DNA of 64,000 nucleotides from NCBI RefSeq assembly GCF_017744675.1, contig NZ_JAGIAV010000002.1, positions 558,001-622,000 of the forward strand. Direction: 5' to 3'. The notes below the pieces were generated by a model. That model was not told the DNA's origin. It saw only the letters and a list, made by a program, of their open reading frames with translations, and ran no database searches. The stretch's first letter is position 1; the number at the start of each line of letters is the position of its first letter. Origin of the DNA: Flavobacterium sp. (GTDB lineage: Bacteria > Bacteroidota > Bacteroidia > Flavobacteriales > Flavobacteriaceae). Position numbers and translations under genes: made by a program. Below, one piece after another: positions 9,380 through 37,801 of this stretch.

Positions 9380-9419
9380 ACTTAGAATCTTAGCAACTTA
9401 GAACCTTAGTATCTAAAAA
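9380..9419. repeat. CTTAG-rich low-complexity repeat
   Basis: Repeated ACTTAGAA/CCTTAG words of the family also found at about 17972, 18230, 36505 and 36915. No coding sense is seen. Confidence 0.6.
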
Positions 9420-13370: not shown

Positions 13371-14138
13371 CTACCCCAACCAACTTTTAAAATCCTGCAC
13401 TTTTTCTCGGCTCACAATAACCTCATCTTCTTTGTAAGTGGGTAAAATCACTTTTAAACGAGAATTGGTGTAGACCTGAATTTCTTTAATTGCTTTTAAC
13501 GGGACAATAAATTTTCTACTTACGCGAAAGAAATCCTTTTTGTCTAGTTCTTGTTCTAAAATTTCTAAAGTTGAATCGATCAAATAATCACGATTATCGT
13601 AAGTATGAATGTAAGTTCCTTTGTTTTCACTGAAAAAACATTCAATTTCTTCTGTTGTAATTACTTTCAAATGCTGACCAATTTTAACTGTAAACCTCTT
13701 TTTATAGGTTTTCTCAAAAGGATTAGACAACATTTGACGAATCTGTTCAAAATCCAATTGCAGGTTTGAAGTTTCGGCTGCAGCTTTTGGAAGACGCGAT
13801 TTGAATTTTGAAACCGCGGTTTCCAGGTCATCTTCATCAATTGGTTTCAGGAGATAATCGATACTATTTAATTTGAAAGCTTTTAAAGCATATTCGTCAT
13901 AAGCAGTTGTAAAAATGATAGCACTTTTTATATCTATCTTTTCAAAAATTTCAAACGACAAACCATCAGACAGCTGAATGTCTAGAAAAATCAAATCTGG
14001 ATGCGAATTGTTTTCAAACCATTGAATCGCTTCTTCTACAGAATGAAGCATGGTTTCTACTTTTACATCTAACTTTTCAAGCTTTCTCTGCAGCAATCTC
14101 GCCGCTGGTTTTTCGTCTTCTATAATTAATGTGATCAT
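13371..14138 (-). CDS. LytTR-family response regulator
   Basis: A 255-residue two-component regulator. The receiver domain has the acidic pocket IIEDEKPAARLL, the phospho-acceptor Asp53 in LIFLDIQLSDG, the TTAYDEYALKAF switch segment and the KPIDEDDL lysine. The C-terminal half (about 145-255) is a LytTR DNA-binding domain (FTVKIGQHLKVITTEEIECFFSENKGTYIHTYDNRDYLID, broken here only by reading order). It is the last gene of a minus-strand run: LytS-like kinase, four 2TM proteins, then this gene 40 bases later. It is the natural partner of that kinase and probably regulates its own cluster or the TonB receptor upstream. Confidence 0.95.
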   Translation of the reverse strand: MITLIIEDEKPAARLLQRKLEKLDVKVETMLHSVEEAIQWFENNSHPDLIFLDIQLSDGLSFEIFEKIDIKSAIIFTTAYDEYALKAFKLNSIDYLLKPIDEDDLETAVSKFKSRLPKAAAETSNLQLDFEQIRQMLSNPFEKTYKKRFTVKIGQHLKVITTEEIECFFSENKGTYIHTYDNRDYLIDSTLEILEQELDKKDFFRVSRKFIVPLKAIKEIQVYTNSRLKVILPTYKEDEVIVSREKVQDFKSWLG

Positions 14139-14178
14139 TTACTATATTGTAAAAAATTGAAAAAATATTAATTCAAAT

Positions 14179-14565
14179 TTACTCCCATTTATTTTTATTT
14201 TGGGCGTCTCTCTCCATATATTTCTGAATTTTCTTCTTTTCCCAATCATTACCGAAAAAAATATCACTTCCGAAAACAGATAATGCGTGCGCTAATAGAC
14301 CGATTCCCCAAAAAAATGCAGTAGAATAAGTGTGCCACTCTGTTAAACCACTTAAATCCATTACCATTAGACCAGCAGATCTATCTCGCGTCAAACTTGA
14401 TACAATGATGATAATATTCACAATAATGTAAATCTTAAGATGAGAGTAAAATCTCTTAAGTCTTTTTACTCTTCTATAAGCTGCATTATAATTTGGATCG
14501 TCTGTATACTCTCCAAAATGCTGTCGCGTGTAATCTTCGTACATTTCTCTTCTAAAACGTCCCAT
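14179..14565 (-). CDS. 2TM-domain membrane protein (fourth separate copy)
   Basis: A 128-residue protein with two membrane helices (IYIIVNIIIIVSSL and STAFFWGIGLLAHALSVFG). It carries the family frame: AAYRRVKRLKRFYSHL before helix 1, WGIGLLAHALSVF in helix 2, then DWEKKKIQKYMERD and a terminal tryptophan. The N-terminal extension MGRFRREMYEDYTRQHFGEY is unique among the copies. 2TM domains are found in Bacteroidota next to, or fused to, LytS/LytTR systems; their function is unknown. Lies 14 bases after the preceding 2TM gene and 40 before the regulator gene. Confidence 0.85.
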   Translation of the reverse strand: MGRFRREMYEDYTRQHFGEYTDDPNYNAAYRRVKRLKRFYSHLKIYIIVNIIIIVSSLTRDRSAGLMVMDLSGLTEWHTYSTAFFWGIGLLAHALSVFGSDIFFGNDWEKKKIQKYMERDAQNKNKWE

Positions 14566-14579
14566 AACTATGCTTTAAA

Positions 14580-14885
14580 TTATTTCCACTTGTTTTTATT
14601 CTGTTTTTCCTTTTCCATAAATTCTTTGATTTTTCTTTCTTCCCATTCTTTTCCCATTCCCGGAAAAACTTCAAAGACTTTTAATCCGTGAAAAACAACA
14701 CCAACTCCCCACCACAATAATGGCCAGAAAAACCATAAATAACTTGGTGATGTATATAAATTGATAAAAATTAAAATCGCGTTTACGAATACGAAAGCCA
14801 CTAGATTTCCATAAAATCCTTTAATATTTTCTACTTTCTTTTTGGCTTGAATATATTTTTCCTCTTCACTTAAATTCCTTTCCAT
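14580..14885 (-). CDS. 2TM-domain membrane protein (third separate copy)
   Basis: A protein of 101 residues if started at the ATG at 14885 (MERNLSEEEKYIQ), which matches the starts of its paralogues; an in-frame ATG at 14897 would overlap the upstream gene by 10 bases. It shows the full family pattern: AKKKVENIKGFYGNL, helix 1 (AFVFVNAILIFINLY), SYLWFFWPLLWWGVGVVFHGLKVF as helix 2, then EWEERKIKEFMEKEKQNKNKWK. Charged ends flank both helices, so both ends are probably on the cytoplasmic side. Role unknown; likely acts with the kinase encoded upstream. Confidence 0.85.
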   Translation of the reverse strand: MERNLSEEEKYIQAKKKVENIKGFYGNLVAFVFVNAILIFINLYTSPSYLWFFWPLLWWGVGVVFHGLKVFEVFPGMGKEWEERKIKEFMEKEKQNKNKWK

Positions 14886-14887
14886 AA

Positions 14888-15217
14888 TTATTCCCATTTT
14901 TGTTTTTTATACTTTTTTTCTAAAATGCTTCTTACTTTACGTTCTTCCCATTGATCACCAAAAATTTTATAAGAAGCAAACAAATCGATTGCAGAACCTA
15001 TCATTACAGCTGTCCAAAGAATCACAATTACCCAATTGATATATTTTATTGGAAAAATTTGCAATGGCAGATTGGTGTATTCTTTTAAAAGAAATAAAAT
15101 CACTGCAATGATGTAAAAAAACAAATGTTTGTAAAAAGATTTCAACTGAATTACTTTTTTACTTGCCAATTCCTGCAGTATTTTTTGTTCTTGATCGTTA
15201 TTCAAATTTGCTTCCAT
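14888..15217 (-). CDS. 2TM-domain membrane protein (second separate copy, most divergent)
   Basis: A 109-residue protein with the helix-1 entry ASKKVIQLKSFYKHLFFYIIAVILFLL and the tail DQWEERKVRSILEKKYKKQKWE. Helix 2 (YINWVIVILWTAVMIGSAIDLF) lacks the WGWG...H pattern of its relatives: the histidine is replaced (IGSAIDLFASYKIF). If that histidine matters, this copy is functionally different. Its start overlaps the previous gene by 20 bases. Confidence 0.83.
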   Translation of the reverse strand: MEANLNNDQEQKILQELASKKVIQLKSFYKHLFFYIIAVILFLLKEYTNLPLQIFPIKYINWVIVILWTAVMIGSAIDLFASYKIFGDQWEERKVRSILEKKYKKQKWE

Positions 15218-15530
15218 GATTGCTTGCTAATCGTTGTTTATTTTCTTTTTCTAGAATTTCCTGAATCTTTCTCTCTTCCCATTTCTTATTAAAGAAAGGC
15301 GGAAGGCTAAAGACTTTAAGTCCGTGTAAAATAATTGCAACACCCCACCCCATTACAGACCATATAAACCATAAGTATTCTGGACAAGTCATTAAGTTAA
15401 CCACAATCGCTATTGGGTTGCACAAAACATAAACGGTCAAATGCTCATAAAATCCTCTTATTTTTTTTACCTTTTTCTGAGCTTCATAATAACGGTCTGT
15501 CTCTATGAAATTATTTTCCACTATTTCCAC
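15198..15530 (-). CDS. 2TM-domain membrane protein (first separate copy)
   Basis: A 110-residue protein starting MEIVENNFIETDRYYEAQ, with KKVKKIRGFYEHLTVYVL leading into helix 1, EYLWFIWSVMGWGVAIILHGLKVF as helix 2, and KKWEERKIQEILEKENKQ at the end. It is closest in layout to the 2TM domain at the end of the kinase just upstream. Its start overlaps the kinase stop by 10 bases and its end overlaps the next 2TM gene by 20, so all are translated as a coupled series. Confidence 0.87.
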   Translation of the reverse strand: MEIVENNFIETDRYYEAQKKVKKIRGFYEHLTVYVLCNPIAIVVNLMTCPEYLWFIWSVMGWGVAIILHGLKVFSLPPFFNKKWEERKIQEILEKENKQRLASNHGSKFE

Positions 15531-16858
15531 GTCTTTTGCTTATTGTCTTTCTCTAAAATTTCTCGAATCTTTCTTTCTTCCCAATCTGAGCTATAACCAA
15601 AAACTTTAAAAGCATGCATGGCAACTCCAAATCCCCAGCCTAAAGCAGAAAACCAAAACCATTGAAATCCTGGTGAAAATCTTAGATTAATAAAAATCAA
15701 GAACGGAATGACACAACAGTAAGAAATTATGTTTCCATAAAAACCTTTTAGTTCTTCGACTCGCTTTTTGGCTCTATAGTAAGCCCTTGCTTCGTCTGTA
15801 TATTCTGCACTCGTTTCCATAACGGCAATTTGTTTGGTTAAAATCGGAATCCTAACGGTAAAATTCTTCTCATCCTCTTGAACTTTCACCTTTCTGTCGG
15901 TTATAATTCCGTATCGGTTTACAATATTCTGAAGTCCGACACCTTGTCTATCCTGCAAAACTTCTTTTTTCTGAAGATCATTCTGAATTGCCAGATAATC
16001 TCTATCAATAAATATTCTAATATGAAGTGGTTTTTGCTCGCTTACTACATTGTGTTTTACAGTATTCTCCAGCAAAAGCTGTAAAGAAAGCGGAACCACT
16101 TTGGCTTCTGGATTGATATTTTCTGTTGGCAATTCGTAAAACAAACTATTTTCAAAACGCATTTTCAGCAAATTCATATAGGTTTTTGCAAATGACAACT
16201 CATCTTCAACCGAAACCAATTCTTTATCTTTTTGCTCTAAAACATAGCGGTAAATTTTGGATAACGAAGTCGTAAAACGCTGTGCATTATCTGGATTTTC
16301 TTCAATTAAAGAACTTAAAACATTCAAGCTATTAAATAAAAAATGCGGATCGATCTGGTTTTTTAAACTCTCGAATTTGGCATTTGCCGTTCCTGCTATA
16401 ATCTTCTGTTGGGTAACCTTATTTTCTTGATAAAGTTTATAAAAATTAAGTCCGTGAAAAAACAGTAACACAATGAATGTCATTACTGCAGGTTCTATAT
16501 AATTTTCTGCTTTCTCATTGGCTAGAAAACCTATAATTGTCTTGTTATCGATTATTACACTTGTAAACAAACGCAACACTACAATTATAATCATCGATAC
16601 AAAAAACGAACTTACGAAGCCAATCAAAATCCTTTTTAACGAATACGGATTTGATCTGAAAACTCTATCTAAAAACTCAAAAAGAACGATATTTGCGATA
16701 TACAAAACCACACTGTAAAGCATGCAATACAAGAAATAGATAGAAAGATTCTTAGTAAAAACTGCTGTACCTATAGAAGCAAATCGAATTAGAAAAGAAA
16801 ATAAAAATACTATTGCTCCAACTAAACATGCTTTTAACAAATTTGGTTTTAATATCAT
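15521..16858 (-). CDS. LytS-like sensor histidine kinase fused to a C-terminal 2TM domain
   Basis: A 445-residue inner-membrane kinase. Residues 1-145 hold about four membrane helices. The His_kinase (LytS/YehU) segment is FESLKNQIDPHFLFNSLNVL with phospho-acceptor His172. The ATPase part has LQLLLENTVKHN (N box) and RQGVGLQNIVNRYG (G box). Related kinases end near TVRIPI (about residue 338); here a complete 2TM module continues to residue 445, beginning at Met347 (METSAEYTDEARAYYRAKKRV). That methionine, at base 15820, looks just like the starts of the separate 2TM genes, so a second product from an internal start is possible. Lies 20 bases after the TPR-like gene. Confidence 0.92.
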   Translation of the reverse strand: MILKPNLLKACLVGAIVFLFSFLIRFASIGTAVFTKNLSIYFLYCMLYSVVLYIANIVLFEFLDRVFRSNPYSLKRILIGFVSSFFVSMIIIVVLRLFTSVIIDNKTIIGFLANEKAENYIEPAVMTFIVLLFFHGLNFYKLYQENKVTQQKIIAGTANAKFESLKNQIDPHFLFNSLNVLSSLIEENPDNAQRFTTSLSKIYRYVLEQKDKELVSVEDELSFAKTYMNLLKMRFENSLFYELPTENINPEAKVVPLSLQLLLENTVKHNVVSEQKPLHIRIFIDRDYLAIQNDLQKKEVLQDRQGVGLQNIVNRYGIITDRKVKVQEDEKNFTVRIPILTKQIAVMETSAEYTDEARAYYRAKKRVEELKGFYGNIISYCCVIPFLIFINLRFSPGFQWFWFSALGWGFGVAMHAFKVFGYSSDWEERKIREILEKDNKQKTWK

Positions 16859-16878: not shown

Positions 16879-17499
16879 TTATTTACAAGTTTTTTGGATT
16901 TCTAATGCTCGGTCCAATCCCCATTTTGGAGCATAAGGCGTTGCTGGTTTAAAAGTATTAAAAAGTTCAATAGATTTATCAACTTGCGCACATAAAGGTT
17001 TTGTGTCTACTCCTGTCCATTTTGCACCGCCTAACTGATAATCGGCTTCACCAAAAACCGCTCTCGGATTATTTGGATCTAATGCTTTTGCTTTTGCGTA
17101 AGCTTCCATTACTTTACTAGAATATTTCATTCCGTTTGTCATTGGGTCAGCTACAACATATCCGGTGTAAATTAAAGCCTGCATTACATACAATTCAGAA
17201 TTGGCTTGATCTTTTATCAATTCAACATCTAAGGCATCTTGCGCTTTTGTAAGCAGCAAATCTATTTTTGTTTTGTCTTTTTCTGTAAAAACAGCTGTTG
17301 CATTGATTAAAGCTACATAATAATTTGGCAGATAACTATTTTTCTCGGCACCAGCAATTCTTTCAAATAAAGCAGAAGCTTCTGCATTTTTTCCTTCTTT
17401 CCAAAGTCCGAACGCTTTGTTCATTCCTTGTTCAAATTGTGTTTGTGCTGAACTTATTGCTACTACTAATAATGCGATTAACGTGATGATTTTTTTCAT
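16879..17499 (-). CDS. Secreted or periplasmic TPR-like hypothetical protein
   Basis: A 206-residue protein with a clear signal peptide (MKKIITLIALLVVAISSAQT). The mature part is helical with TPR-like repeats (AFGLWKEGKNAEASALFERIAG, then AYAKAKALDPNNPRAVFGEADYQLGG) and two cysteines (PLCAQ, QKTCK) that could form a disulfide. No catalytic motif is seen. It lies between the DUF2141 gene (46 bases upstream) and the 2TM kinase gene (20 bases downstream), and is probably part of the same operon; it may help the kinase sense the periplasm, but this is inference. Confidence 0.8.
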   Translation of the reverse strand: MKKIITLIALLVVAISSAQTQFEQGMNKAFGLWKEGKNAEASALFERIAGAEKNSYLPNYYVALINATAVFTEKDKTKIDLLLTKAQDALDVELIKDQANSELYVMQALIYTGYVVADPMTNGMKYSSKVMEAYAKAKALDPNNPRAVFGEADYQLGGAKWTGVDTKPLCAQVDKSIELFNTFKPATPYAPKWGLDRALEIQKTCK

Positions 17500-17545: not shown

Positions 17546-17953
17546 TTAGAAGGTAATTTCGACTTTTGAATCTTTACTGACATCAAATTTAGCATCTTTA
17601 TACAAAGGAGGTCCCATAAATCCTTTTGCGTTGTTTGAAGCTGCGTATTCTTCTGATGGAATTCCCATTGCATTTCTGTCAAGCACTCCATTGCTGTTTT
17701 CATCATGATAAGTTGAAATTGCATATTCTCCAGCAGGAAGATTTTCAAAAGTTACAACCGCTTGATTGTTTTTAATTTCGGAAGCAAGACTTTTGTAAGT
17801 TGTTTTAAGAAAGGTTCCATCAGAATTGTATAATCCTACTTTCACAATTCCCGTATCGTTTTTTAAACCTGAAACAGCAACAGTTAATTTCACATTTTGT
17901 GCAGACATTAAGTTGCAGATAAATAAAATAGTTATTGTAATAATTTTGGTCAT
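17546..17953 (-). CDS. DUF2141 family exported protein
   Basis: A 135-residue protein with a signal peptide (MTKIITITILFICNLMSAQN). The mature part is the DUF2141 beta-sandwich: LTVAVSGLKNDTGIVKVGLYNS, the FENLPAGEYAISTYHDENSNGVLD core and the GIPSEEYAASNNAKGFMGPPLYKDAKFDV tail region. The family is common in Bacteroidota and Proteobacteria and its role is unknown; it is often found near TonB-dependent receptors and LytTR systems. It heads the run leading to the 2TM kinase and follows the TonB receptor gene after a 350-base repeat-rich gap. Confidence 0.88.
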   Translation of the reverse strand: MTKIITITILFICNLMSAQNVKLTVAVSGLKNDTGIVKVGLYNSDGTFLKTTYKSLASEIKNNQAVVTFENLPAGEYAISTYHDENSNGVLDRNAMGIPSEEYAASNNAKGFMGPPLYKDAKFDVSKDSKVEITF

Positions 17954-18304
17954 GATTTCTAATTTTTTAAGGTTCTGAGTTACTAAGGTTCTAAGATTCT
18001 AAGTTTTTTTTTTGATGATTAAAACTCTTTTTTAAAGGTTCAAAGTGACAGAGAAACAAAGTTGCAAAGATTTGATTTTCTAACTATTAAGGTTCTAAAC
18101 CTTTGAACCTATGCCGCTCTGTTTCTTTGTTCCATTTAATTTACACTTCAAAAGTATGCTGGTTTTTAGTCTTTTAAAATTAAATGATACTGAGTTGTTG
18201 ATTTTGGTTACTGAATTGTTTTTTTTAAAGATGCTAAGGTTCTTAGGGACTAAGGTTCTAAGCTTTTCCTTAGCACCTTAGTATCTTAGAACCTCAGAAC
18301 CTTT
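17954..18304. repeat. Repeat-rich gap between DUF2141 and TonB receptor genes
   Basis: The gap holds three patches of low-complexity repeats: GGTTCTAAG/CTTAG words (17972-18003 and 18228-18304, the latter in both orientations so it can fold back) and CAAAGTGACAGAG words (18037-18070, answered by CTTTGAACC and CTCTGTTTCTTTG at 18100-18133). A possible -7 box on the minus strand (TACTTTTG, complement of 18149-18156) could serve the DUF2141 gene. No gene is seen. Confidence 0.65.
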
Positions 18305-20470
18305 TTAAAGATTCTTCAACTGATTCTCATTCTTATTCTGGCTAATCGTCCAGAAGAAACCTACGAAGAAGAATCGATCTGCGGTTGGAACTACGGCTTG
18401 TCTTTGATACACTCCGCTTGGGTCTGGATTTTTGGCATAATCATATCCGAAAACATTTTTTGTTCCTAAAACATTCGAAACAGAGAAATAAAGGATTTTT
18501 TGTGTTGTCAATAAATACGCCCAGTTGAAACTCAAGCTATTGTATGATTTTGTTTTTCCGTTCATAAACTGTGTCTGGTTTGGATCATTGTACGGACGTC
18601 CTGTGCTGAAACTGTTTGTTAAACCAACTTGCGATTTCCAATCTGTAATGAAATATTTTGTTACGACAGATAAATTATGATTTGCAATAAAGTTTGGAGT
18701 TGCCATGTACGGAAAGTTTTTATACTGTCTTTCTGAATCGATATAAGAGTACGAAATCCAATATTCTAAGTTTTTGTACAAATTGCTGTCTCTCCAAAAC
18801 AAATCGATTCCTTTTGCATAACCCGATCCGTTGTTATTGAAAACCGAGTTGTACTGAATGTCTCTTGTATTGTACTGCACCAAATTGCTGTAATCTTTAT
18901 AATAAGCCTCTGCTCTTAGCGTTTGTCCAGGTCTTGTAAAAGTGTAATTTAAAATATAATGACTTGCTTTCTCGCTTTCGAACTGATGGTATTTAGAAAA
19001 TTTAATATAATCTACGACAGGTGTTTGTGTAAAGTCTCCATAAGCAAAAGAAAACTGACTGCTTTTTGAAGCTTTATATCCTAATGAAGCTCTCGGCGCA
19101 ATATTGTTTTCGTTTAATAAACTATTATTTGAATATCTTAAACCAACTTTTAAAGCTAATTTTTTAGAAAACATAATATCTCCTTCGGTATAAGCTGCAA
19201 AAATGTTTGAGTCGTAACCATTTGTAACATCAAGCGCAATATGATCTGCTACATTTTCGTCGTATTTTGTAATGAAATAATCGGTTCCAAAAGACAATTT
19301 AAAGTAGTTCGAGAATTTCTTGCTTAATTTTAATTTCAGTTGCGCTGCGTTTTCTTGACTGTCAACTCCTGTAATGTCGTATTTTAATTTGTTTTTGCTG
19401 TAACCGTAACTCACTCCAGAAGTTAATGTCCATCCTGTTCCAAAACTTCCTTTGTATGAAGAATTCAAATAGAAGTTATTATTATTCATATCTGTTCTGA
19501 TCGGATTTTCAAAATTGACGTTTTTCTGATTTAAATCGAATTTTTCAGAATCAAATGAAGCGTACAATTTGAAAATTCCATTTGTAAAATTGTATCTGTA
19601 AACCGTTTCGCCTCCAAGTGATTGATACGGATTATTCCAATCTACATTTTGCGGAATAATAGCTTGATATGGAGCCAAATTCACATACATCATGTTTACG
19701 CTTAAAGAACTTTTTTTGAATTTCTGCGTGTTTCCTAAACTCAAACCAACCGTCATTAATCCGATATCTGTTTTTTCGTGATCTTCTTCATCCTGCGTAT
19801 TCAAAAGCAAAACACTCGATAAAGCTTCACCATATTCTGCAGAATAACCTCCAGTAGAAAATGCGATTCCGCTAAATAAGAAAGGAGAAAAACGGCTTCT
19901 TGTTGGTAAATTATTTGTTGTTGCGCCATAAGGCTGTGCTACGCGAATTCCGTCTACAAAAGTCTGAGTTTCGCTTGCCTCACCTCCACGCACAAACAAA
20001 CGTCCGTCCTCGCCTACTGTTTGCGTTCCTGGCAAAGTTTGCAGAGCCGCAACTATATTTCCTGCCGAACCCGCTGTAGTCACAATATCTAAAGGTTTTA
20101 AAACAGAAACTCTAGCTTTGTCTCCAGATTCTAAAGTTCCAGCTGTAATCACAACGGCATCTAAAGCATTAACATTTTCTCTTAATTTTACGGTTTGCCC
20201 TTTAAAATTTGCCACATCAATTTCTTGTTTGAAAGTTTCGAAAAGCAGAAAACTAACCACTAAAAATTTGTTTCCTGTTTCGGTTGTTTCAAAAGAAAAA
20301 TCTCCAGTTTCAGAACTTGTTGCTCCATCATAAGTTCCATCAATATAAATGTTTGCGCCTGCAACTGGTTTTCCTTTTTGATCAACTACTTTTCCTGAAA
20401 TTGTATTTTGAGCAAAAATTAATGCGGTAAAAAATAAAAAGCTAACTGTAAAAAATAATTTGGTTTTCAT
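18305..20470 (-). CDS. TonB-dependent outer membrane receptor with carboxypeptidase-like domain
   Basis: About 721 residues from the ATG at 20470 (MKTKLFFTVSFLFFTALIFAQ signal peptide, shown here as a motif only); the frame runs 13 codons further upstream, but the signal peptide fixes the start. After it comes a CarboxypepD_reg-like domain (GKVVDQKGKPVAGANIYIDGT), then the plug (LQTLPGTQTVGEDGRLFVRGG, ETQTFVDGIRV) and a beta-barrel ending in an aromatic residue-rich strand (RFFFVGFFWTIS). It takes up a ligand across the outer membrane using TonB energy. No SusD partner is beside it, so siderophore, peptide or vitamin uptake is more likely than glycan uptake. A TACATTTG promoter box is about 22 bases upstream. 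Confidence 0.92.
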   Translation of the reverse strand: MKTKLFFTVSFLFFTALIFAQNTISGKVVDQKGKPVAGANIYIDGTYDGATSSETGDFSFETTETGNKFLVVSFLLFETFKQEIDVANFKGQTVKLRENVNALDAVVITAGTLESGDKARVSVLKPLDIVTTAGSAGNIVAALQTLPGTQTVGEDGRLFVRGGEASETQTFVDGIRVAQPYGATTNNLPTRSRFSPFLFSGIAFSTGGYSAEYGEALSSVLLLNTQDEEDHEKTDIGLMTVGLSLGNTQKFKKSSLSVNMMYVNLAPYQAIIPQNVDWNNPYQSLGGETVYRYNFTNGIFKLYASFDSEKFDLNQKNVNFENPIRTDMNNNNFYLNSSYKGSFGTGWTLTSGVSYGYSKNKLKYDITGVDSQENAAQLKLKLSKKFSNYFKLSFGTDYFITKYDENVADHIALDVTNGYDSNIFAAYTEGDIMFSKKLALKVGLRYSNNSLLNENNIAPRASLGYKASKSSQFSFAYGDFTQTPVVDYIKFSKYHQFESEKASHYILNYTFTRPGQTLRAEAYYKDYSNLVQYNTRDIQYNSVFNNNGSGYAKGIDLFWRDSNLYKNLEYWISYSYIDSERQYKNFPYMATPNFIANHNLSVVTKYFITDWKSQVGLTNSFSTGRPYNDPNQTQFMNGKTKSYNSLSFNWAYLLTTQKILYFSVSNVLGTKNVFGYDYAKNPDPSGVYQRQAVVPTADRFFFVGFFWTISQNKNENQLKNL

Positions 20471-20492
20471 ATCATCTTTGGTTTTGATGAGG

Positions 20493-20500
20493 CAAATGTA
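20493..20500 (-). promoter_or_regulatory. TAnnTTTG -7 box for the TonB receptor gene
   Basis: TACATTTG on the minus strand, 22 bases before the chosen ATG. Just upstream, TTTAAC and GTTAAA (within 20501-20520) form a spaced inverted repeat that could be an operator. Confidence 0.55.
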
Positions 20501-20610
20501 TTTTAACATTAAACGTTAAAAAATATATAATAACCCAATTGTAGAATTTCGAGGATGAGTTGTAAATGACTAATTTGTATATTAGCTAGGAAATCCAAAA
20601 TCACCATTTT

Positions 20611-25660: not shown

Positions 25661-25693
25661 GGGACAAAGATTCAAAGTGACAAAGTAACAAAG
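25661..25693. repeat. ACAAAG-type repeat, left of the four-helix-bundle gene
   Basis: GGGACAAAGATTCAAAGTGA and following words. Its inverted counterpart lies at 26130-26156, so the pair flanks the gene between them. Confidence 0.65.
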
Positions 25694-36503: not shown

Positions 36504-36934
36504 AAAAGGTTCTAAGGTCTGAGATGCTAAGGTTCTAAGTTTTTCCCTTAACCTGAATTAAAAAATAGCCACGAATTCACGAATTTAATTATAAAACTTG
36601 TGAAATCGTGGCTGTTTTTTTTTTTGCCACGAATTACACAAATCTACACGAATTAAATTTTTATTCTGTAATAAAAAATTGCAGAAATTAGTGAACGTAG
36701 CAAACTATAAAAAAATTTAGCCATGAATTCACGAATGATTTTAAATAAAATTCGTGAATTCGTGGCTATTCTTTTTATTAATTAGGCGAATTATTTTTTT
36801 ATTCTTCAAATAAAAATTAGCGGAAATTTGTGGAATTTGTGGCAATCTATAAAAAATTTTAGCCACAGATTCACGAATGATTTTAAATAAAATTCGTGAA
36901 TTCGTGGCTAACTTTTTCTTAGAAACTTAGAAGC
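36504..36934. repeat. Nested hairpin repeat array (gene-free, 431 bases)
   Basis: CTTAG-type words at 36505-36550 and 36915-36956 bound the array. Inside are three 47-49-base hairpins of the AGCCACGAATTCACGAAT family (36567-36613, 36719-36767, 36861-36909); the last two are nearly identical. A further pair, GCCACGAATTACAC-like at about 36625 and TTGTGGAATTTGTGGCAA-like ending near 36845, encloses the middle hairpin, as if one repeat had entered another. No gene is seen. Confidence 0.75.
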
Positions 36935-37801
36935 TTAGTGACTTAGAAGCTTAAATTCATAAACCTTTCCTCCTATTTTATTTGTTTTTTCGTCGGCGAT
37001 TAATAATGTGTTGTTGTCTTTAAAAACGATAGCTTCTTTTTGTGAGAAGTGATTTAGATTTAATTCTGTTTGTGTTCCTTTATGGAATAAATCTCCCTTA
37101 AAATCTTTAAACAAAAGCACTTTATCATGGCTTAATAAAGCAACTTTTTTACCATCAGGACTTATTGTCGCACTTGTCAGTACGCAATGATTGTAATTGC
37201 TGCAAGTTTTAAATTCTCCTATTTTTACTGCTTTCTGAGTTCCTGCTGCATTTTTTATTTTGTAGATAAAAGCAGTTCCGTCAAAACCTTTACTTCTATT
37301 TTTGGTAAAAAGGTAGAAATAGCCGTCTCTCTCAAAAAAGCCTTCAACATCATAAAACATTTCTTTTTTCTTTGGCGGAAATTCTTTCTGTTCTGGATAC
37401 GAAAATGAGATTTTATATTCGGCTTTTGCCAAATCATTTTGCAGCTGATTTTTTGCCACTTTATAGATGCACAAATCCCTTCTTTCGTTATTATTGTTTC
37501 CAAAATCTCCAATGTAGACATTTCCAGATTTGTCTTTTGTAATATCTTCCCAATCGACATTTGTAGCGTTTGAAATCGTAATTGTTTTGGCCAATTTCCC
37601 TTTAGAATCAATTGCATATATAGCATTTTTATTTCCGCTGTCTTCCAAAGTATAAAGTGTATTGGTTTCAGGAAAATACGCAATACCCGAAACTTCCTTT
37701 AATTTTTTCGGAAGCGAATAAAGTTCTTTCAAATCAGAACCAGACTGCTTTTGGCACGCTAATAAAACAATTGAACAGATAACTAAAAAAGGCTTTTTCA
37801 T
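36935..37801 (-). CDS. Lipoprotein with predicted beta-propeller (SdiA-regulated/phytase-like)
   Basis: About 288 residues from the ATG at 37801 (MKKPFLVICSIVLLACQK), a lipoprotein signal with lipobox LLAC; an upstream ATG at 37825 would add 8 residues and fall inside a repeat. The mature part reads as repeated beta blades: LKEVSGIAYFPETNTLYTLEDSG, VDWEDITKDKSGNVYIGDFGNN, FFERDGYFYLFTKN, LTSATISPDGKKVALLSHD. VSGIAY...LEDSG and the DWEDI/GDFGNN blocks are typical of the SdiA-regulated and esterase-like phytase propellers. Catalytic activity cannot be judged. It stands alone between two repeat elements. Confidence 0.78.
   Translation of the reverse strand: MKKPFLVICSIVLLACQKQSGSDLKELYSLPKKLKEVSGIAYFPETNTLYTLEDSGNKNAIYAIDSKGKLAKTITISNATNVDWEDITKDKSGNVYIGDFGNNNNERRDLCIYKVAKNQLQNDLAKAEYKISFSYPEQKEFPPKKKEMFYDVEGFFERDGYFYLFTKNRSKGFDGTAFIYKIKNAAGTQKAVKIGEFKTCSNYNHCVLTSATISPDGKKVALLSHDKVLLFKDFKGDLFHKGTQTELNLNHFSQKEAIVFKDNNTLLIADEKTNKIGGKVYEFKLLSH

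Follow-up and report, generated by a model that had tools for sequence, protein, structure and literature searches.

Several described systems come close to the one considered here, i.e., the LytS-type/LytTR systems BtsS/BtsR and YpdA/YpdB of Escherichia coli (PMC10653868), the LytTR regulatory systems (LRS) HdrRM and BrsRM (PMC6193735), and the action of the small membrane protein MgrB on PhoQ (PMC8404706). We analyzed a stretch of 64,000 nucleotides (nt) from Flavobacterium sp. (contig NZ_JAGIAV010000002.1, positions 558,001 to 622,000; hereafter the window), in which the minus strand between 13371 and 16858 encodes, consecutively and according to the open reading frame (ORF) list and Pfam, a histidine kinase of 445 amino acids (aa), four small 2TM genes (S1 to S4) and a LytTR response regulator. 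As far as the relevant sections of the cited papers describe them, BtsS/BtsR and YpdA/YpdB resemble this locus in having a PF06580 kinase with a multi-helix membrane sensor, a receiver-LytTR regulator and a link to transport genes; they differ in that the kinase here carries a 2TM tail and an apparently exchangeable sensor, that 2TM genes lie between kinase and regulator, and that a neighbouring TonB-dependent receptor gene has the same kind of predicted site. The HdrRM and BrsRM systems likewise have membrane-protein genes beside the LytTR gene, and 9-base-pair (bp) direct repeats 12 bp apart before the promoter, but these two-protein systems are described without a kinase and with unrelated membrane proteins, whereas our locus has, in the same gene run, a full kinase that shares the domain of the small proteins. 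An LRS is also marked by direct repeats of roughly 9 bp that are separated by 11-13 bp and immediately precede the operon promoter, and the window has two such sites. MgrB is a small membrane protein under the regulator of its own system (PMC8404706), as the 2TM proteins here would be, and these are proposed to act back on the kinase via membrane helices; MgrB is, however, an unrelated protein of 47 aa, whereas the 2TM partner domain occurs both as part of the kinase and in several ordered copies.

The kinase and regulator are ordinary LytS-type/LytTR parts, and it is the array and its arrangement that look unstudied. To our knowledge, 2TM (PF13239) is a widespread small membrane domain without an assigned role. 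We found no paper on the PF13239 family or on the array in the literature searched, which lacked most subscription journals, and in the papers checked the name "2TM domain-containing protein" refers to the differently named glycine zipper 2TM family. The co-occurrence of "2TM domain" and "Flavobacteri-" in PMC9425974 concerns another protein, DUF4191. A LytTR regulator with a kinase was reported in Flavobacterium johnsoniae coevolved with Burkholderia thailandensis, where all five lines were mutated in the regulator FJOH_RS09515 or the adjacent kinase FJOH_RS09520 (PMC10197871, Table 2), and the authors call the LytTR contribution unknown. This is probably another pair and not the system under study, since the two locus tags are adjacent.

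The 2TM array with its kinase and regulator

The genes and predicted sites of the window described below lie on the minus strand. The kinase (15521..16858) matches PF06580 at residues 160-239 (89.8 bits) and PF13239 at residues 362-435 (92.3 bits; 15554..15775), so that its C terminus is a 2TM domain. Both H172 and the motif LLEN..KHN are invariant across 18 aligned kinases, i.e., the phospho-acceptor His and the N box of a LytS-type kinase are present, and the nearest solved relative is the GanS kinase domain (6swj). The regulator (13371..14138) contains a receiver (PF00072, 58.2 bits) with its acceptor Asp at D53 in FLDIQLSDG, as read from the translation, and a LytTR DNA-binding domain (PF04397, 79.3 bits). 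Between them lie S1 (15198..15530; 110 aa, GTG start; PF13239 97.7 bits), S2 (14888..15217; 109 aa; 44.7 bits), S3 (14580..14897; 105 aa; 105.3 bits) and S4 (14179..14565; 128 aa, adjoining the regulator; 90.5 bits). All five modules, at 44.7-105.3 bits, pass the curated PF13239 cut-off of 24.8 bits, which bears out the original prediction, made from the letters alone, of five 2TM modules in a row with a LytS kinase and a LytTR regulator. In NCBIfam, the four small proteins match no family over its cut-off. On sequence grounds, therefore, the kinase and the regulator are complete, and the kinase tail and the small proteins are the same domain.

Two descriptive details of that prediction hold in part. 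The genes had been called a single overlapping series, and overlaps do occur at three of the five junctions (kinase/S1, 10 nt; S1/S2, 20 nt; S2/S3, 10 nt), but S3 and S4 are separated by 14 nt and S4 and the regulator by 40 nt. The modules had also been said to share three motifs: the FY entry is present in all five, whereas WGxG...H..KVF is exact only in the kinase tail and S3 (S1 has WGVA and S4 ends in SVF), and the WEERKI tail is exact in three, with WEERKV in S2 and WEKKKI in S4. The most divergent module, S2, retains the Trp of helix 2 without the glycines and the His, and this is also the slot-2 consensus of 11 four-copy loci, i.e., it is a conserved form of its own.

The arrangement is conserved among relatives, which we surveyed in two collections that overlap in that they share species, with ORFs annotated using profile models built for this analysis. 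The first comprises 69 stretches (the window, L063-L129 and L140), 68 of them with a fused kinase, and the second 80 contigs (L143-L222) from Flavobacterium, Winogradskyella, Mariniflexile, Christiangramia, Bizionia, Algibacter and others, 78 of them with a fused kinase. One to six small 2TM genes follow the fused kinase in 143 of 146 loci (66/68 and 77/78). Counted between kinase and regulator, the first collection has no copy in 2 loci, one in 10, two in 22, three in 21, four in 11 and five in 2, and the second has none in 1, one in 21, two in 29, three in 16, four in 6, five in 2 and six in 3. Two of the loci scored as zero (L117 and L162) are contig ends, and the genome of the former carries the array on another contig (L118); in the third (L076) the position is taken by a 123-aa ORF whose 2TM score is very weak. 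The regulator follows in 66/68 and 74/78 loci, and four of the six exceptions are contig ends. Of 349 kinase/2TM junctions, 165 overlap and 131 more are 0-30 bp apart, which fits coupled synthesis.

Examination of the individual slots demonstrated that the copies keep their order. In a quick tree of 249 of these short domains, 67 of 68 kinase-fused domains were nearest to another fused domain, 44 of 55 first slots to another first slot, and 56 of 66 last slots, counting single copies, to another last slot; only 2 of the 249 domains had their nearest relative within their own locus. Of 158 small domains, 129 had their nearest relative from another locus in the same slot class; 1000 shuffles of slot labels inside loci gave a mean of 58.7 (standard deviation 8.3, maximum 82). 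The ratio of nonsynonymous to synonymous substitution rates (Ka/Ks) of slots 1-4 is about 0.03-0.2 against L143, L144, L145 and L150, and S3 is the best-conserved small copy (Ka 0.023-0.066 against four relatives). Judged from these comparisons, the small 2TM slots are ordered orthologues under purifying selection. The survey of copy number and order thus agrees with the earlier description of an old, kept expansion and with a steady association with kinase and regulator; the suggestion that the subunits are interchangeable is not supported, the positions being orthologous. The idea that the slot next to the regulator is the copy kept in single-copy loci was rejected, as it holds for only 6 of 11.

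Structure models add the following. The AlphaFold2 (AF2) model of S3 (predicted local distance difference test, pLDDT, 82.7; predicted template modelling score, pTM, 0.57) has helices at 5-49, 57-74 and 79-103. The kinase model (pLDDT 82.0, pTM 0.45, so that its domain placement is unreliable) has long helices at 3-29, 36-66, 74-103 and 118-166 and, C-terminal to the kinase fold, helices at 353-394, 401-420 and 423-441. When the PDB was searched by fold with the 2TM model, no match reached the threshold of E 0.001 (best 2.6); among solved chains, the best match to the 2TM profile had an E of 0.92.

Within its own genome, the window's locus holds five of the six 2TM matches; there are 15 LytS-type kinase and 19 LytTR matches, and by position only 1 of the 15 kinases has a 2TM match nearby, the other 14 having none. 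The sixth 2TM gene (L130:6010-6354; C10:1042078-1042323) lies 10 bp before a dihydrofolate reductase (DHFR) gene (PF00186), with a thymidylate-synthase-like ORF, recognized by eye, further upstream. A 2TM gene before a DHFR-like ORF recurs, again by eye, in L138, L141 and L142, and in one genome (L139) the two are fused in a 305-aa ORF (PF13239 79.9 bits, PF00186 201.5 bits), although a membrane-tethered DHFR would be odd. Variants of the array itself were also seen. For example, L114 has two 2TM units within one 233-aa ORF that replaces two slots, and in some genomes of another family of the order an ICMT/PEMT-like methyltransferase gene lies in or just after the array (by Pfam in L087 and L123; by size alone in L088, L105, L111, L112 and L119). 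Extra genes are inserted before the regulator in L065, L092, L110, L146, L147, L170, L208 and L209, and inside the array in L222, including a PMT_2 glycosyltransferase (L065) and a DUF2306 membrane protein (L110).

Predicted LytTR-type sites and upstream genes

The upstream genes, two probable regulator sites and the apparent sensor exchange go beyond the original prediction. Upstream of the kinase, by 20 bp, lies the gene of a 206-aa protein (16879..17499) with a signal-peptide-like start (by eye) and a sub-threshold similarity to TPR, no family exceeding its cut-off. It is preceded by a DUF2141 gene (17546..17953; PF09912, 115.2 bits) and, across a gap of 351 bp, by a TonB-dependent receptor gene (18305..20509; PF00593, PF07715 and PF13715), whose true start is probably an internal ATG at 20470. 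Among the fused loci of the two collections, the 206-aa gene lies directly upstream of the kinase in 54/68 and 70/78, a TonB-dependent receptor gene upstream on the same strand in 46/68 and 48/78, and a DUF2141 gene is present in 18/68 and 15/78.

A block conserved before the receptor gene in 14 aligned Flavobacterium loci contains two 9-bp direct repeats 12 bp apart, in the window ACAACTCAT-12 bp-ACAATTGGG (20534..20563), and then, 33 bp after the repeat, TACATTTG (20493..20500), an instance of TAnnTTTG, the -7-like element of Bacteroidota. The half-sites of this LytTR-type repeat agree at 7/9 and 8/9 positions with the LytTR consensus. A second LytTR-type repeat, ACAATTCAG-12 bp-ACAACTCAG (18190..18219), sits between the receptor and DUF2141 genes, before the run from DUF2141 through the 206-aa protein, kinase and 2TM proteins to the regulator; it is also visible in relatives and is followed, again after 33 bp, by the -7-like TACTTTTG (18149..18156). 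This spacing puts both repeats about 10 bp before the expected -33 position. In LytTR autoregulation, repeats of the same length and spacing lie mostly 10 bp before the -35, according to the section of PMC6193735 that treats them. The presence of such a repeat before its own gene run suggests that the kinase/regulator system probably regulates itself.

We assessed the sites with a matrix trained on 21 loci and applied to both strands of the whole locus in 124 others. The best matrix site lies at most 400 bp upstream of the receptor, DUF2141, 206-aa or kinase gene in 113 of the 124 (50/54 and 63/70), where about 6 are expected. The same holds for 28 of the 29 loci titled other than Flavobacterium, four of them with negative scores. 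The 11 misses comprise three loci whose contig begins too late (L075, L088 and L168) and eight whose best, mostly weak, site lies before small 2TM genes. Since the 124 loci are homologous operons, some from the same or nearly the same species as training loci (L106 and L145, by length and place, are one contig), this test measures conservation and not independent events; it is nevertheless fairer than counts with a relaxed consensus, which was set after the sites had been seen. By that consensus, an upstream site occurs in 123 of 145 loci, 64 before the receptor gene, 107 before the DUF2141, 206-aa, kinase or 2TM gene and 48 before both. TAnnTTTG lies exactly 33 bp on from 89 of 174 consensus sites; among random 70-mers, 111 of 2900 contain one anywhere. 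The full element, i.e., the repeat with TAnnTTTG at 33 bp, occurs 88 times in 57 of 147 loci and not at all in reversed sequences, and within the window it occurs in exactly two places, at 20563 and 18219. A search for strict -33/-7 promoter pairs gave nothing at the locus.

Our scan of the window's own genome returned five matches to a strict pattern (control 0) and five to a degenerate one (control 1), this locus being included in each. None of the eight other matches has TAnnTTTG 33 bp on, and the gene content at three of them (L223, L228 and L229) has no common theme. A wider regulon is thus not supported by the other genome matches, and we limit the claim to the two sites in the window.

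The second site is flanked by intergenic repeats with an 8-nt period, (CTTAGnnn)n and (CTTTGnnn)n, which have 12 and 6 matches in the window against 0.08 and 0.37 expected, at 17983-18003, 18250-18289, 9381-9409, 36527-36946 and 25665-25693, and also occur elsewhere in the genome, where CTTAGAACCTTAG is found 43 times (reversed control 0). Copies pair into long hairpins (-38 kcal/mol, z -6.8; a second, -30 kcal/mol, z -3.4), and in relatives the corresponding position is occupied by units of CTAAG or CAAAG.

Apparent exchange of the kinase sensor

LytS proper carries a 5TMR-LYT sensor. The N terminus of our kinase lacks it and matches no sensor family in Pfam at E up to 1, its sole, weak match being Abhydrolase_9_N below the cut-off; the AF2 model has four long N-terminal helices instead. 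This region, residues 1-145 (16424..16858), is the apparently exchangeable part of the protein. For example, the window and L150 are 96% identical in the kinase core and 90% in the tail but 16% in the sensor, and the window and L073 are 95, 95 and 17% identical. Among the 1104 kinase pairs with cores at least 85% identical, 511 have sensors below 35% (mean 18%), with tails at 78%. The DNA follows the same pattern. Compared with L150, L073 and L100 in 60-nt bins, the window is 33-60% identical between 16860 and 16441 and 53-71% in the next bin, identity recovers to 81-85% in the bin from 16380, and the preceding gene and the array stay alike. In contrast, L143, which has the same sensor class as the window, is 83-90% identical across the sensor region; L104, also of this class, drops to 61-73%.

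Two main classes account for 108 and 34 of the 146 sensors, with about 8 changes of class on a quick tree of the short core sequences, a rough count. Both look old, since L087, from another family of the order, has a sensor of the rarer class. Part of the contrast reflects fast change, as the sensor is the fastest part within one class too (67% between the window and L104 and 57% between the window and L145, with cores at 97 and 96%), and the existence of two discrete classes is the reason for favouring exchange. The sensor has apparently been exchanged several times between these two old classes, probably by recombination, with core, tail and array constant. The possibility that the 2TM slots track the sensor class was not supported: among 14 four-slot arrays (91 pairs), no slot was more diverged between classes once the identity of the 206-aa protein was allowed for.

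Possible roles of the small 2TM proteins

A domain shared by the kinase and the small proteins, their regular co-occurrence, and a split form in a genome of another family of the class (G103) form the classic pattern of touching partners. The membrane signalling complex first suggested for this array is plausible. In that genome a separate 2TM gene directly precedes an unfused kinase and a regulator (locus L133), and of the kinases in the window's genome it is the fused one that its kinase matches best (157.7 bits; next 135.4), which points to a fusion or fission of the kinase/2TM pair. We propose, at about even confidence, that the small 2TM proteins are accessory membrane subunits that would assemble with the kinase tail and tune the kinase of a self-regulating LytS-type/LytTR system, both the contact itself and the sign of its action being inferred. 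A four-helix sensor would anchor the kinase in the membrane, and the catalytic part would lie in the cytoplasm, as would the two ends of the 2TM tail; the cytoplasmic placement of both 2TM ends in the small proteins would follow from the kinase tail. Like binding like, the separate proteins might attach to this tail and surround the kinase dimer as a small collar in the membrane, their cytoplasmic helices setting the balance between kinase and phosphatase. On stimulation of the sensor, the kinase would phosphorylate the regulator, which would then bind both direct repeats and raise expression of the receptor and, from the second promoter, of the DUF2141 protein, the 206-aa protein, the kinase, the 2TM proteins and the regulator itself. 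Newly made 2TM proteins may feed back on the kinase, where we think damping likelier than boosting. Since it is the catalytic core that the slots go with, whatever the sensor class, such a collar would tune the output half, and the sensor could be exchanged without altering it.

Several observations weigh against this proposal. Copy number ranges from 1 to 6, which is unexpected for a complex of fixed stoichiometry, and two loci that are not contig ends (L074 and L179) have the kinase and 2TM genes but no regulator in the stretch read. The predicted sites are not universal either, as 22 of 145 loci have no upstream consensus site, and none of the 29 loci titled other than Flavobacterium has TAnnTTTG at exactly 33 bp, which suggests that this spacing is a Flavobacterium feature or that the -7 element differs in other genera. 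The fused ORF is present in 25 of 36 same-genus genomes sampled and missing from 11, some of them incomplete drafts; of these 11, seven have one 2TM match, two have none, and G019 and G021 have three and two. Any 2TM match was found in 92 of 395 genomes drawn from the phylum, and among 30 loci read with 1.5-kb flanks, each from a different genome outside the order, 28 have no adjacent LytS kinase or LytTR-type regulator and one, that of G103, has the LytS/LytTR pair beside 2TM; in one more (L243) a regulator-like partial ORF lies one gene from 2TM. Together with the unfused kinase of G103, this makes the LytS link look like the recruitment of a general membrane module, and the sixth 2TM gene of the window's genome, standing before a DHFR gene, indicates that 2TM need not mean signalling.

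Such contexts without a kinase also speak for reading the small 2TM proteins as output, in which case the system would switch on envelope proteins (the receptor, the DUF2141 and 206-aa proteins and 2TM itself) and the tail would merely let the kinase sense their state. The 2TM genes do lie within the probably autoregulated run, and the best matrix site falls between the kinase and the first small 2TM gene in L096, L102, L108 and L216, and between the second 2TM gene and a gene that is ICMT-like or of that size in L087, L105, L111 and L119, scoring 25.1 in L108, 12.8 in L216 and 4.2 or less in the others. We nevertheless consider this reading unlikely, as it sits poorly with the fusion of one 2TM domain to the kinase, with the separate 2TM genes that accompany 143 of 146 fused kinases, and with the placement of the array between kinase and regulator and not after both. 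The small proteins could instead hold the LytTR regulator at the membrane, with the kinase overriding them; HdrR and BrsR of Streptococcus mutans are restrained in this way by HdrM and BrsM in the sections of PMC6193735 that describe these systems. The membrane-protein genes adjoin the LytTR gene, and the 9-bp repeats, 12-bp spacer and distance of about 10 bp to the expected -33 reproduce the geometry given in that paper. Inhibition of this kind is quite improbable here, since described LRS have no kinase whereas this locus has a complete one, the regulator has a receiver with its acceptor Asp, and it is to the kinase, not the regulator, that 2TM is fused.

It is highly improbable that the 2TM proteins are tandem copies of a neutral or selfish kind that play no signalling role of their own. 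The range of copy numbers, and two six-copy loci (L151 and L152) whose extra 122-aa copies stand side by side, would suit such an origin, but Ka/Ks is well below 1 at every slot, the order is fixed and nearest relatives within a locus are almost absent; for the old slots, at least, conservation of order and sequence speaks against it. The accessory-subunit proposal extends, as a tentative and rather doubtful possibility, to a modular kinase with a swappable sensor cassette, whose output would be tuned by a hetero-oligomeric 2TM collar nucleated by the kinase tail, the number and kind of subunits setting the gain.

Since 2TM is accompanied here by a kinase and a regulator as well as by two predicted DNA sites, the action of the domain should be measurable with a reporter. 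Judged from the predicted sites, the response likely includes the TonB-dependent receptor and two proteins that look secreted, and the natural sensor exchanges in an otherwise constant locus may serve as ready-made chimeras for studying how LytS-type sensors couple to their cores. If the modular-kinase reading is true, the 2TM family would gain its first assigned role, and the kinase would represent a new class of multi-subunit histidine kinases.

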